Positions 2,806-39,280 of a stretch of 64,000 bases of DNA are shown here, one piece after another. Made by a program: the position numbers and the translations under genes. Source of the DNA: Paenibacillus sp. D2_2 (GTDB lineage: Bacteria; Bacillota; Bacilli; Paenibacillales; Paenibacillaceae); the NCBI RefSeq assembly GCF_031199965.1, contig NZ_CP133605.1, positions 5,499,001-5,563,000 on the forward strand. Direction: 5' to 3'. Below the pieces are notes generated by a model. It was not told the DNA's origin. It worked only from the letters and a program-made list of their open reading frames with translations, and did not search any database. The stretch's first letter is position 1, and each line of letters starts with the position of its first letter.

Positions 2806-4304
2806 CTATTGCATAGGCTGCGGTTCACGGTTCAATCCCAGCGTCCGCGCCGTTGAAGTATGGATCTGCCCAATCAGTTCCGGCTTGCTTAAGAGCCTCA
2901 TGCCATAGGATGGAATCATTTCTTTGATCTTTGGCTCCCACTCTTTGATATGCTGTGGGAAACATTTATTGATCACCTCAAGCATGACAGGAACGGCGGT
3001 AGAAGCACCTGGTGAAGCGCCGAGTAATGCAGCGATTGAACCATCGGCAGCACTAATGACCTCCGTACCAAATTGCAGTGTTCCTTTGCCACTTTCCGTA
3101 TCCTTAATAATTTGTACGCGCTGGCCTGCCACCACCAGATCCCAATCCTCAGATTTGGCATTCGGTACAAATTCCCGTAAAGTTTGCACGCGCTTTTCCT
3201 TCGATTGCATCAATTCCTTGATCAGATAAGTCACCAATGACATGTTCTTGGCACCTGAAGCCAACATCGTTATGAGGTTATGCGGTTTAACCGAAGAGAT
3301 CAGATCGAACATAGAACCAAACTTCAAGAACTTAGGAGAGAAGCCGGCGAACGGACCAAATAATAAGGATTCCTTACCCTCGATTAATCTGGAGTCCAGA
3401 TGCGGAACAGACATCGGTGGGGCCCCCACCTGAGCTTGACCGTATACCTTAGCATAATGCTGCGCAACAACGTCTGGATTCTTACACACCATAAACAATC
3501 CGCTTATTGGGAATCCGCCGATCCCTTTACCTTCAGGAATGCCGGATTTCTGCAGCAAATGAAGGCTCCCTCCCCGCCGCCGATGAAGACAAATTTAGCC
3601 GTATGGCGCGTAACCGTACCGTTCTCGATATTCCGCACCTTCAATTCCCATCTGTCATCACTAGTCCGCTTCACATCCTGGACGTGCTGGTTGAACTTCA
3701 TGTCAACGCCTTTACTCTTCAAATGATCGAACAATATGCGTGTTAAAGCGCCAAAATTAACATCTGTGCCTGAGTCAATCCTTGTAGCTGCGATCGGACC
3801 ACTTACCGTCCGGTCCTTCATCATCAGCGGAATCCATTCCATCAGCTTCGCTGGATCATCCGAATACTCCATCCCTTGGAATAGTGGGTTGCTGGATAAT
3901 GCTTCGAATCTCTTCTTTAGAAAGGCTACATCCTTAGCCCCTTGTACAAAGCTCATATGAGGCACTGGCATAATAAAGTCTCGCGGATTACGTATCAGCT
4001 TGCTGTTTACAAGATATGACCAAAACTGCTTAGAAACCTGGTACTCTTCATTAACCTTGATCGCTTTACTAATATCCATGGATCCATCCGGTTTTTCTAC
4101 GGTGTAGTTAAGCTCACACAGTGCGGAATGCCCTGTTCCAGCATTATTCCATTCGTTAGAGCTTTCCTCTCCAGCGCTACTGCGCCTCTCAAACACTGTA
4201 ATTTCCCAGTCCGGTGCTAGTTCTTTCAGTAGTGACCCTAAAGTCGCACTCATGATCCCGGCACCGATCAAGATAACGTCTGTCTTGATTTGTCCATTAG
4301 CCAT
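2806..4304 (-). CDS. mqo: Malate:quinone oxidoreductase, frame-broken
   Basis: FAD-dependent membrane-associated enzyme that oxidises malate to oxaloacetate and reduces quinone (TCA cycle/respiratory chain). The dinucleotide motif is [14 protein letters not shown] near the N-terminus; [19 protein letters not shown] is a hallmark of the family. The frame fails in the GGGG run at 3572-3575 (plus strand CCCC); one more G gives [20 protein letters not shown] and a 499-residue protein, the normal length. The ATG at 4304 is preceded by AAGGACGG; an upstream in-frame TTG at 4328 has no site of its own. It is monocistronic with its own terminator. Confidence 0.93.
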
Positions 4305-4775: not shown

Positions 4776-5656
4776 CTATTTCTTCAGCTTGCGATTATTG
4801 ATCCAGATCGGCAAGCGAAATACAAGATTAATCAATAGGACAACGAATACTAGAACAGCAGCCGATTTATCGGCAATCTGCCTGGCATCCTCCACGATCG
4901 CTTCGGACTGTACGTACCACAAATGAACAGCCAACGTCTCGCCAGGAGAGAATAGGTTAAAATCCCACATCTCGCCGAAGTGCTGAGTCCCGCCGTCAAA
5001 ATAATAACGGCCGATTCCCCGAAAGCACGGCCCGCAACAAGACAAATGCCGGTGATGATTGCCTGCATGGCTGTAGGAATGACGACCGTGCGGATCATAT
5101 GAAACTGGGTCGTTCCAAGTCCATATGCCGCGTGTCGCAGATCATTCGGCACCGCCCGAACCGCTTCTTCCGTAACCCGAGCCAACATCGGCAGGTTGAG
5201 AAAGGCCAAGCTAACGGCTCCGCCAAGAATCGTAAGCCCGATGCCGAAATATTCGGCGAAAATCGCCAGGCCTAGCAGGCCGAATACGATCGATGGCACA
5301 GAGGATAGCGACTCGACGCAAATACGAAGAATTTCTGTGAATCGGTTGTTCGGCGCGTATTCCGCCATATAGATGCCCGCTCCCACACCGATCGGAACTG
5401 ATATCAATAGCGAGAGAAACAGGATATAGAAGGAGTTGAATAGCATCGGTCCGATGCCTCCGCCAGCATCAATCTCCTCCGGCAGCTTAATCAAGAAATC
5501 CCAGGAAATTTGCGGCAGCCCTTTGCTCAGGATAGTGAACAGCAGCCAAAACACCAGCAGCAGGACCCCCGCTCCCAAAGCATAAAAACAACCCGTGGCT
5601 ACCCGATCCCATAGCAAGGAGCGAGTAGTTTTCCGCGACAGTTTATACCCGGTCAT
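4776..5656 (-). CDS. pstA: Phosphate ABC transporter permease PstA, frame-broken
   Basis: Inner-membrane permease subunit of the high-affinity phosphate importer. About six membrane helices; the permease loop with the EAA-like block is seen at AVPNDLRHAAYGLGTTQFHMI. As read it ends in an unrelated tail; one extra base near 4971-4976 rejoins the frame as LSTSAEMWDFNLFSPGETLA and gives 293 residues, the family length. Its ATG overlaps the pstC stop (ATGA), so the two are translationally coupled. No pstB follows: a terminator comes 14 bases after the stop. Confidence 0.92.
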
Positions 5657-10941: not shown

Positions 10942-11859
10942 TTAGGACTGCATCTCGTCCTCGATCCGCTTCATGAACTCTTCCGCGGCGCTGTAACCAA
11001 GCTGCTTGAGATACCAATTATTCGCCGCTGCCTCGATCAGACCAGCTACATCACGTCCCGGCTGCAGCTGAATTTCGATATGCGGTATCTGCACACCCAG
11101 ATAATCAGTGAACTGAGGGACGACCTCCAGCTCATTGTTCAGAGAATCTCCCTTCCACGGGGTTAATTCGATATCAAGTACAATCCGCGTCTCGTCCTGA
11201 AAGGCTCTTCGCCCATATTGACGGACGACATTAATCAGTCCGACGCTGCGCAGAGCAAGAAATTCGCGGGTCGTCTCATTATGTGATCCAAGAAGAGTAG
11301 ATGGACTGAGCCTCTTAAGCACCACTATATCGTCCGCCACAAATCGATGTCCCCTCCGGATGAGCGTATGAGCGGTCTCGCTTTTGCCAATGCCGGATTT
11401 ACCCCTGAGCAGGATACCTATGCCGGAGACATTTATACATACCCCATGAATCGATACTTCCGGTGCCAATGCCTTCACTAGATAACCATCCAGCTTAACA
11501 ATAAAATCCGTTGTTGTCTCTGATGTCCTCAGCAAAGGGATGCCTTCCTGCTCGCAGAACAGGGTTAGAAAAGGGATCTCCTGCTGGCCAGACGTCACAA
11601 TAAAGCACGGTGGATGATATTTGACGATGTTCCCAATATGCAGCTTGCGTTCCTCTACCGTACGCGTCAATAAATAGGTAATCTCCTTACGTCCAAGTAT
11701 TTGAACCCGCTTCATAGGGAAAAAATCAAAATACCCGACAAACTCTAGCCCCGGTCTGTGTGTACGAGGTCGGGTAATCTCGCGATCCATGTGGCCAGCT
11801 CCAGTAAGCACCTCTAATTTGAATACATCGGCCAGTCTCTGAACAGTGATCGTCTTCAT
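10942..11859 (-). CDS. hprK: HPr kinase/phosphorylase (isolated copy)
   Basis: Bifunctional kinase/phosphorylase of HPr Ser-46, the sensor for carbon catabolite repression in Firmicutes. The Walker A is [10 protein letters not shown] (residues about 152-161), preceded by the conserved His region SIHGVCINV and followed by RGHRFVADD, so catalytic residues are present. The later signature ([15 protein letters not shown]) is diverged from the usual GLGIINV form. AGGAGGAGAG lies before the ATG at 11859. It stands apart from lgt and ppaX, its usual operon partners, so this is probably a second, specialised copy; the main copy would be elsewhere. Confidence 0.9.
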
Positions 11860-12105: not shown

Positions 12106-12607
12106 TTAAGCACTCTGCGCAATTAAGCCGTTTACTTCATCCAATACAGCCTCATACGTAGTTCCCAACGCGATGGCAATTTCTTTGAACAATATATTTC
12201 GAGTTGAAGTTAACATGGTCTGATCTTGATTGCTCAGCTTTTTGTTATTTCTCTCGGCCCTTTGCTTTTGACGCATTAGCGTATTGATAATTTTAGCGAT
12301 TTCTTCCCGGTTGCCAGAACGGATGACTTTAGAATACGTATGATTGCGATCTGTATTTTTCTCGATCCATTCCGTGCCCAGAGATCTAAAGGATTGTATG
12401 ACCTCCTCGGCTTCCGCCGGGCCAATAAGGTTAAGCATGAGCAAGTTATGGTTGTCCACCGGGGCACTGATCTTTAAATTATCATCGCTCAACGGATGCA
12501 AATCATAATACAGTTTCAGTTTGCCTGGCAATTTCCTTCTCACTTATACTATCAATTTTGCATATGCCGTGTACTGAATATATAACTAAATGACCCACTT
12601 TAAACAT
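12106..12607 (-). CDS. CarD/CdnL-like RNA-polymerase-binding regulator, frame-broken
   Basis: The N-terminus read from the ATG at 12607 (MFKVGHLVIYSVHGICKIDS) is the Tudor-like RNA-polymerase-interacting domain of CarD/CdnL. After ISEKEIA the frame is lost at GCCTGGC (12523-12529, plus strand); removing one base restores EKEIAGKLKLYYDLHPL and the 145-residue helical DNA-binding domain (EWIEKNTDRNHTYSKVIRSG). Total about 166 residues, as in the family. AGGAGG precedes the start. CarD proteins stabilise the open promoter complex. It is divergent from a MarR gene with two operators in between, so its expression is probably ligand- or stress-regulated. Confidence 0.8.
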
Positions 12608-12629: not shown

Positions 12630-12644
12630 GTCAACCAAGTTGAC
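12630..12644. promoter_or_regulatory. MarR-type operator 1
   Basis: GTCAAC-CAA-GTTGAC, a perfect 6-base inverted repeat with a 3-base centre, extended by TT and A. It lies just downstream of the likely carD-like transcription start. Confidence 0.7.
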
Positions 12645-12650
12645 ATACTT

Positions 12651-12688
12651 CTCTATTATACACCATCGTCAACCCGGTTGACAATGAA
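12651..12688 (-). promoter_or_regulatory. Predicted sigma-A promoter of the CarD-like gene, with operator 2 inside it
   Basis: On the minus strand TTGTCA, an 18-base spacer and TATAAT form a strong sigma-A promoter. The second operator GTCAAC-CCG-GTTGAC (12668-12682) overlaps the -35 and spacer, so a bound dimer would block RNA polymerase. Its centre is 38 bases from that of operator 1. Confidence 0.65.
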
Positions 12689-12744
12689 TAGCCTGCTTTT
12701 GTATATTGAATGAGCATATACCGAAAGGAATGATAATAATAAAT

Positions 12745-13182
12745 ATGGAATTGCATAACTTAAATGTGATAGACCTAGTAAGTGAGCTTCATATCCGTCT
12801 TCGCAGCTTAAACAATCAATTGTGGCATCAGAGCCATGATATCCATATATCCAACTCAGAATGGTACATTATGTCAAGGACCTACAAGAAGCAGGTAACC
12901 ATATCCTATGTCGCAAGGCAGATGGAAATTTCTCGTCAGGCTACACATAAGTTCATTAAAAATTTAGAGTCCAAAGGCTTGGTAGAAATCAACAATGCAC
13001 AGCATAATAACAAGGACAAATGCATCCAGCTTACAAAGCTCGGCGAAGAATGTTTTGAACAGAACAGAGCCATTAGGGAAAAGCTCGAAGCGAAGATTAT
13101 CGCCTCCATCGGAGCCGAGCGTACGGATCAGCTTGTGCAAATCTTGAATATGGATTGGGGATTGGATAATGTCTCATCTTAA
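12745..13182 (+). CDS. MarR family transcriptional regulator
   Basis: Winged-helix repressor of about 145 residues. The recognition region is VTISYVARQMEISRQATHKFIKNLESKGL, followed by a wing with NAQHNNKDKC and the dimerisation helix. The start is uncertain: ATG 12745 fits the family (MELHNLNVIDLVSELHIRLR) but AAAGGA is 15 bases away; ATG 12730 touches AAAGGA. It is divergent from the CarD-like gene and very probably represses it and itself through the two GTCAAC-N3-GTTGAC operators. The ligand is unknown. It ends shortly before a terminator shared with the chemoreceptor gene. Confidence 0.88.
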   Translation: MELHNLNVIDLVSELHIRLRSLNNQLWHQSHDIHISNSEWYIMSRTYKKQVTISYVARQMEISRQATHKFIKNLESKGLVEINNAQHNNKDKCIQLTKLGEECFEQNRAIREKLEAKIIASIGAERTDQLVQILNMDWGLDNVSS

Positions 13183-38225: not shown

Positions 38226-39280
38226 ATGATCCATAACGAGGAACGAAAAATCGAATATTATAAAGCGCTTGTCGAGAAAAGATCTGACTATGAAGGCGTC
38301 TTCTATGTAGGTGTCAAATCCACTGGTGTGTTCTGCCGGCCGACCTGTCCTGCTAGGAAGCCAAAATACGAAAACTGCGAGTTCTATGAGACTGCGCAAC
38401 AAGCGCTTCTGGCTTCCTTCCGTCCCTGCCAGCGCTGCCGACCCTTGTCGCACCCGAATCAAGTCTCGGATATCGTCCGACTGCTCGTTGAAGCGGTTGA
38501 GCAAAACCCAGAGAAGCGATGGAAGGGACGCGATTTCAAGGCTCTATCCATCGATGAATCCACTGCCCGCCGTCAGTTCAAGAAGCGCTTTGGCATGACA
38601 TTCGTCGAATACGCTCGAGCACGTCGAATGGGACTCGCTCTGAAGAGCATCCGATCGGGGGAAAAAATAATCGATACGCAATTAGCTTCAGGTTATGATT
38701 CCAGTAGCGGATTTAGAGATGCATTTTCTCGCATCATGGGCGCCCCTCCTACTCTCCTTGATGACAGCCGTATTCTTAAGGCAGCTTGGCTGGATACGCG
38801 GCTTGGCCCTATGATCGCCATAACGGACGAGGATGAGCTGTATCTATTGGAATTTGTGGACCGTCGAGGACTAGAACGCGAGGTTGAACGACTTAGGAAA
38901 AGATTAAAAGCAGCCATCATTCCCGGCCAAACAAAACCTATACAATGGATTAAACACGAACTGACTCAATATTTCGAGGGTACGTTAACTGAGTTTAAGA
39001 CCCTCTTCATCTTATCGGGTCACCTTTCCAGCAAAGCGTATGGGAGCAATTAAAGCAAATTCCACCTGGGGAAACTCGTTCTTACTCCGACATTGCGCTG
39101 AAACTTGGCAAGCCCACCGCATATCGTGCGGTAGCTCAAGCGAATGGTGCCAATCAACTGGCGATCGTCATTCCCTGTCATCGCGTGATCAACTCCGATG
39201 GTGAGCTCGGCGGGTATGGTGGCGGACTAGCACGCAAAGAGTGGCTGCTAAATCACGAGAAGAACAAAGTACATTCATAA
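38226..39280 (+). CDS. ada: Bifunctional Ada: DNA-alkyl-phosphotriester and O6-methylguanine repair/AraC activator, frame-broken
   Basis: N-terminal Ada zinc domain with the four Cys (FCRPTCPARKPKYENC; RPCQRCRP), the first of which accepts methyl groups from phosphotriesters; AraC HTH (ARRQFKKRFGMTFVEYARAR); C-terminal O6-methylguanine-DNA methyltransferase. As read the last domain is lost after EGTLTEFKT; one extra C in the run at 39001-39003 restores PLHLIGSPFQQSVWEQLKQI and the acceptor IPCHRV to a stop at 39280, 351 residues. The operon is not evident; alkylation-repair gene alkD lies nearby at 40279. Confidence 0.93.

Follow-up and report, generated by a model that had tools for sequence, protein, structure and literature searches.

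The gap between a marR gene and a divergent carD-like gene in the window (the whole 64,000 nt stretch of Paenibacillus sp. D2_2 DNA that was analysed) holds two palindromes, and raises the question of whether a MarR-family repressor governs a CarD-type transcription factor, and how far such control would reach. The original prediction had named two perfect GTCAAC-N3-GTTGAC sites, and a pattern scan of the window returned exactly these, at the same positions; at zero mismatches the pattern occurred twice, whereas 100 shuffles that preserved dinucleotide composition gave a mean of 0.00. The features of the locus are as follows:

12106..12607, minus strand: carD-like gene, interrupted near 12526 by a frameshift of one base, with the N-terminal RID part and the CarD_C part (ORF 12106-12543) in different frames.
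12630..12644, no strand: putative operator 1, GTCAACCAAGTTGAC, a perfect match to GTCAAC-N3-GTTGAC, just 3' of the carD -10 element.
12655..12684 (read from 12684 to 12655), minus strand: carD promoter pattern TTGTCA-18-TATAAT, a consensus match only (11/12 bases).
12668..12682, no strand: putative operator 2, GTCAACCCGGTTGAC, also a perfect match, overlapping the -35 elements of the carD and marR promoter patterns.
12678..12707, plus strand: marR promoter pattern TTGACA-18-TATATT, a consensus match only (11/12 bases), with its -35 element supplied by operator 2.
12745..13182, plus strand: marR, winged-helix MarR family; ATG 12745 is the chosen start, and the ORF opens at TTG 12706.

Both gene products could be assigned to families. 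The MarR protein scored 27.1 bits against Pfam MarR_2, which is marginal at a cut-off of 27, and its profile matched solved MarR proteins (best E = 5.9e-8). A recognition-helix stretch, ISRQ(A/G)THK, was common to all nine MarRs of one alignment (A1), including those linked to DUF2798 genes that have the same operator. A conserved redox cysteine was considered and rejected; C105 was invariant among the 10 MarRs of another alignment (A4), but is replaced by serine in one protein (L014) of A1. On the other side of the gap, the CarD_C part of the window gene scored 42.6 bits (Pfam), with the RID part in the other frame, and the closest relative (L007) carried both the RID and CarD_C domains above cut-off (PF02559, 46 bits; PF21095, 44.6 bits). 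The gene is CarD-like, as originally proposed, but the frameshift in the window assembly had been overlooked: the frame that begins at ATG 12607 stops after 34 codons, the remainder is in another frame, and the gene has one extra base relative to its counterpart in a related genome (G011).

The frameshift is likelier to be an assembly error than a real break, to judge from the surrounding sequence, because three other window genes carry one-base indels and the completeness of the genome is 93.4% (most relatives in the genus are at 99-100). Single-base indels relative to G011 were observed in four of the 23 window genes compared, carD among them, the other three being mqo-like, pstA-like and ada-like genes (3415-4304, 4779-5656 and 38226-39262; named by eye). 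A fifth gene flagged in this comparison was marR, which only ends sooner than its G011 relative. A real pseudogene is the less likely interpretation for the same reasons; if the extra base is real, the marR-carD module of this particular strain could be non-working. Directly 3' of carD and on the same strand was an HPr kinase/phosphorylase-like gene with both Pfam domains (10942-11859).

The fold of the intact protein was predicted with AlphaFold2 for CarD of Paenibacillus sp. GM2 (L108), from 19 sequences, and the model had a CarD fold over its whole length (pLDDT 94.2). Foldseek and VIA-align returned Thermus and Mtb CarD as the top matches, with Z = 18.1 over 157 residues at 2.8 A for Thermus CarD with RNAP beta1, and Z = 17.8 at 2.4 A for Mtb CarD in the open complex. 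Trp80 was invariant in 19/19 CarDs and stood four residues ahead of the model helix at 84-97; in the profile alignment it was not paired with the known wedge tryptophan, the register differing from that of solved CarDs. In Thermus CarD, according to the part of the source available, the wedge tryptophan is found at the N-terminal start of helix alpha3 (PMC4593161). A role for Trp80 as wedge in the present CarDs is therefore unproven.

These results bear on the alternative that survives best, namely that MarR regulates the pair but CarD has ceased to function as an RNA-polymerase factor, or its gene is dead in the lineage concerned, such that control by the module stays local. The window gene is frameshifted; CarD was found in just 27/295 genomes of the family (E <= 1e-8), of which 16 were close relatives (E below 1e-70); and, in the accessible portion of one source, CdnL/YdeB of Bacillus subtilis is reported to make no contact with RNAP beta, and CdnL to be non-essential in both B. 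subtilis and B. cereus (PMC5324124). Against this, the divergent carD reads through intact in all 13 genus relatives that have it, the same type of one-base indel affects the three other window genes, and the predicted fold aligns well with CarDs from Thermus and Mtb. Loss of CarD function was judged unlikely.

Whether MarR and carD belong together was addressed by comparing loci. A set of 86 loci, less 11 that were identical over the carD start region, gave 75, comprising 55 with a clade MarR adjoining carD, five without, and 15 CarD paralogues; L168 (G514) was dropped since no intact CarD was found there, although its MarR has a site with one mismatch. An operator was scored at <=1 mismatch and <=200 bp upstream of carD. 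On this definition it preceded carD in 54 of the 55 non-redundant MarR-adjacent loci, the window included, and the single exception (L142) had two sites with two mismatches each. The orientation of marR relative to carD was divergent in 28 loci, convergent in nine, tandem with marR first in 17 and tandem with carD first in one, and the operator stayed in front of carD in every gene order. The 17 tandem loci with marR first all came from one genus (g69) and are not independent. Conservation of the operators in orthologous gaps, on which the original prediction had been staked, was thus borne out even where the genes were rearranged, and the divergent arrangement that it had envisaged was common, at 28 of 55. 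In genus g69 (L145-L161, L163), which belongs to the Bacilli, a single perfect operator lies between the tandem genes and overlaps the carD -35 element.

The operator was largely absent where no MarR of this clade was adjacent. It was found in 1/5 carD loci without an adjacent clade MarR, and in none of the 15 loci of CarD paralogues; sites with <=1 mismatch numbered zero in 253,540 positions outside the carD-upstream and marR regions of the same loci. The sole positive among the five was Neobacillus drentensis, where a clade MarR is encoded on another contig with a site before that marR also. Speaking against a MarR-operator link, neither the CarD gene of G509 nor its divergent MarR, located elsewhere, was preceded by an operator, although in the MarR tree the G509 protein grouped, if weakly, with the carD-linked MarRs. 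The more distant CarD paralogue (L041, L044-L048, L065-L078, L133) occurred without this MarR or operator, and in several cases adjoined an ABC-transporter-like gene. Additional sites with <=1 mismatch near the marR start were identified in four of the nine convergent loci and in the tandem locus with carD first. In the other five convergent loci, the scanned stretch around marR contained no site with <=2 mismatches, so self-repression of marR would not be general.

The pair was also followed through successive taxonomic levels. In the genus, MarR was present in 15/40 genomes, 14 with a divergent carD and one (L020) with a DUF2798 gene instead, and all 15 MarR loci had two sites each with <=1 mismatch; CarD_C was found in 16/40. 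In the family, 15 of the 16 close CarDs adjoined a MarR with operators, and the genome with the remaining one (G107) had neither MarR nor operator. Of the 16 weak family matches, 15 were retrieved, all but the second one in G238. Scans of the order (18/296 genomes at E <= 1e-20), of the class (36/398 at E <= 1e-35) and of named genomes (23 loci) extended the pair to Bacillus sp. EB600, Neobacillus, Mesobacillus, Oceanobacillus, Compostibacillus, Lentibacillus and Planomicrobium. A chance two-gene arrangement peculiar to the window's strain was rejected because of this conservation across relatives. From comparative sequence evidence, the marR-operator-carD pair is real.

The position of the sites relative to the promoters was consistent between loci. 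The promoter predicted around one site, TTGTCA-18-TATAAT, was recovered as a consensus match, and it stands back to back with the marR pattern, operator 2 overlapping both -35 elements; the scan returned seven promoter-pattern matches, where shuffled sequence averaged 4.0. The upstream operator was overlapped by the best-scoring -35 element in 55/55 loci, while the second operator started between -6 and +15 bases from the end of the -10 element in all 31 loci with two sites. Start-to-start spacing of the operators was 46 bases in 11 loci, 39 in seven, 45 in six, 38 in three, 37 in two and 43 in two. These spacings are not of one helical phase, and simple occlusion of the promoter would therefore be favoured over a fixed face-to-face contact. 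The habit of the MarR family, a palindromic operator overlapping the promoters of the regulator and its target, is matched here by pattern and position.

Such geometry might also be expected if the palindrome were simply the appearance of two back-to-back -35 boxes, since TTGAC reads in both directions, and were maintained by promoter constraint alone. The marR promoter does draw its TTGACA from operator 2, which overlaps the carD -35 as well, and the universal overlap of the upstream site agrees with this. Yet operator 1 follows the carD -10, a position that calls for no -35 element; the full palindrome is kept in convergent and tandem loci that have no divergent marR promoter; and it is missing from the paralogues and from the quarter of a million other positions scanned. 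Promoter constraint is very improbable as the sole explanation. Just as improbable is that another regulator binds the sites and MarR is a bystander target, for while the sites precede several kinds of gene (carD, DUF2798-like and one MFS) and MarR binding is a prediction, they track MarR in 19/21 DUF2798-group loci, in 54/55 carD loci and at an isolated marR on another contig; among the carD genomes without an operator, those from Cohnella (two copies of one genome), Clostridium and a MAG gave no MarR match at E <= 1e-12.

The MarR therefore remains the best candidate for binding the sites, and the operator also accompanies its relatives. Paenibacillaceae MarR relatives (L093-L107, L171-L175) were found beside DUF2798-like membrane-protein genes with the same operator; one of these genes was checked against Pfam, and the others were assigned by sequence likeness. 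There were 50 MarR matches in the family, of which 35 were not linked to carD; operators were scanned at 21 of these 35 (36 of the 50 matches in all), and 19 of the 21 had a site with <=1 mismatch; L104 and L176 lacked one. When 57 MarRs were placed in a tree, a branch with 100/100 support parted the DUF2798 group from the carD group, with which the proteins of N. drentensis and G509 fell; the tree was midpoint-rooted, which does not fix the polarity of change between DUF2798 and carD. The operator is common to both groups despite this split, and so the DNA specificity of the MarR would appear to predate the target gene or to be independent of it. The consensus over 87 sites was again GTCAAC-N3-GTTGAC.

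Further sites, for which a search had been proposed, do exist, but a large regulon was not seen. The window's genome (one contig, 5.75 Mb) had one other perfect site, C1:748681, inside an open frame (L001). Among 22 genomes, 15 of 19 perfect sites were at the marR-carD pair and four were off locus, compared with nine sites for a reversed-pattern control. Scattered matches to a looser pattern of 18 bases occurred in 24/40 genus genomes, and its control pattern matched too. One off-pair site with a single mismatch was noted in L207. In N. drentensis (L195 / L226), the isolated marR was accompanied by two sites (0 and 2 mismatches) before a DHA2-like MFS gene, which is a possible second target. 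The module was also considered as part of an efflux locus, and this was rejected; a DHA2-like MFS gene was not a constant partner, as a permissive blastp cut-off detected one in 9/45 stretches, of which two were distant matches (26-28% identity).

Taken together, it is highly probable that the two palindromes allow a dedicated MarR to repress carD as well as its own gene until it is released by a signal. Both palindromes would be operators of the adjoining repressor. A MarR dimer at operator 2 would cover the -35 elements of the carD and marR promoters, and another at operator 1 would sit at the carD transcript start; with two sites acting on carD and one on marR, carD is predicted to be strongly repressed and marR to be autorepressed. 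A signal would then release MarR, and CarD, as a CdnL-type RNA-polymerase-binding factor, would be made only at that point. In this scheme the sites, the promoter patterns, their conservation across the Bacillales and through rearrangement, and the CarD fold come from computation, while we infer MarR binding, the direction of control (repression, not activation), the ligand, and the action of CarD once made.

The original prediction went further, reading the module as a switch over many promoters. The operator-like character of the sites, and their being common to the marR/carD pair, stood up; the switch did not fare so well. It would have a small-molecule-responsive MarR set CarD synthesis, such that a single chemical cue adjusts the stability of open complexes across many promoters at once without a sequence-specific activator, and we regard this as a tentative and rather doubtful extension. 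The hypothesis is unproven, because CarD is an accessory gene here, and because CdnL of B. subtilis reportedly does not bind RNAP beta, so far as the partial source describes it (PMC5324124).

Comparison with characterized CdnL/CarD proteins places the system in context. Those of Mycobacterium, Thermus, Myxococcus and Caulobacter have the same two-domain architecture, RID plus a helical C-terminal fold, but the excerpts available describe them as either essential or promoting growth, and as often found in every member (PMC4593161, PMC5324124), whereas the present CarD is accessory in its family and is predicted to be under a dedicated MarR. The tryptophan of the present CarDs is also about four residues earlier relative to a conserved glycine than in those proteins. 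Bacillus cereus cdnL (BC4714), likened by its description, is likewise a Bacillota CdnL that is non-essential; it is stress-induced and, unlike the MarR-paired carD, has no regulator named in the portion of the source available (PMC4746229). On the regulator side, PchR (YvmB) of B. subtilis is similarly a MarR-like repressor, with several palindromic boxes in each of the divergent promoter regions it controls, but its box is GTTYMMYMGTAAAC rather than GTCAAC-N3-GTTGAC and its targets are pulcherriminic acid genes, as given in the part of that paper available (PMC4992311). Membership of the PchR regulon was rejected, as GTTYMMYMGTAAAC does not agree with the 87-site operator consensus.

The original prediction knew of no described case of a MarR/CarD pairing, and none was found in the literature searched, part of which was swamped by cardiology and bone-marrow papers; nor did that literature yield a description of how CarD-type factors are controlled in the Bacillota. 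The regulatory pair is apparently undescribed. A dedicated and conserved repressor would offer a handle on the targets of CarD in the Bacillales, and on its partner. The locus further provides a natural example of an operator that stays constant while the gene behind it changes, between DUF2798-like and carD, and as the genes themselves are rearranged.

MarR-family autorepressors with a divergent target are common; they are winged-helix proteins that bind palindromic operators over two promoters and repress both themselves and their neighbour. Because of this, the surprise of finding a MarR beside carD is partly lowered. The carD-linked MarR has the winged helix and the operators overlapping two promoters in common with these typical systems, but where their neighbour is a pump or an enzyme, here it is a CarD/CdnL factor, and the gene order varies around a constant operator.
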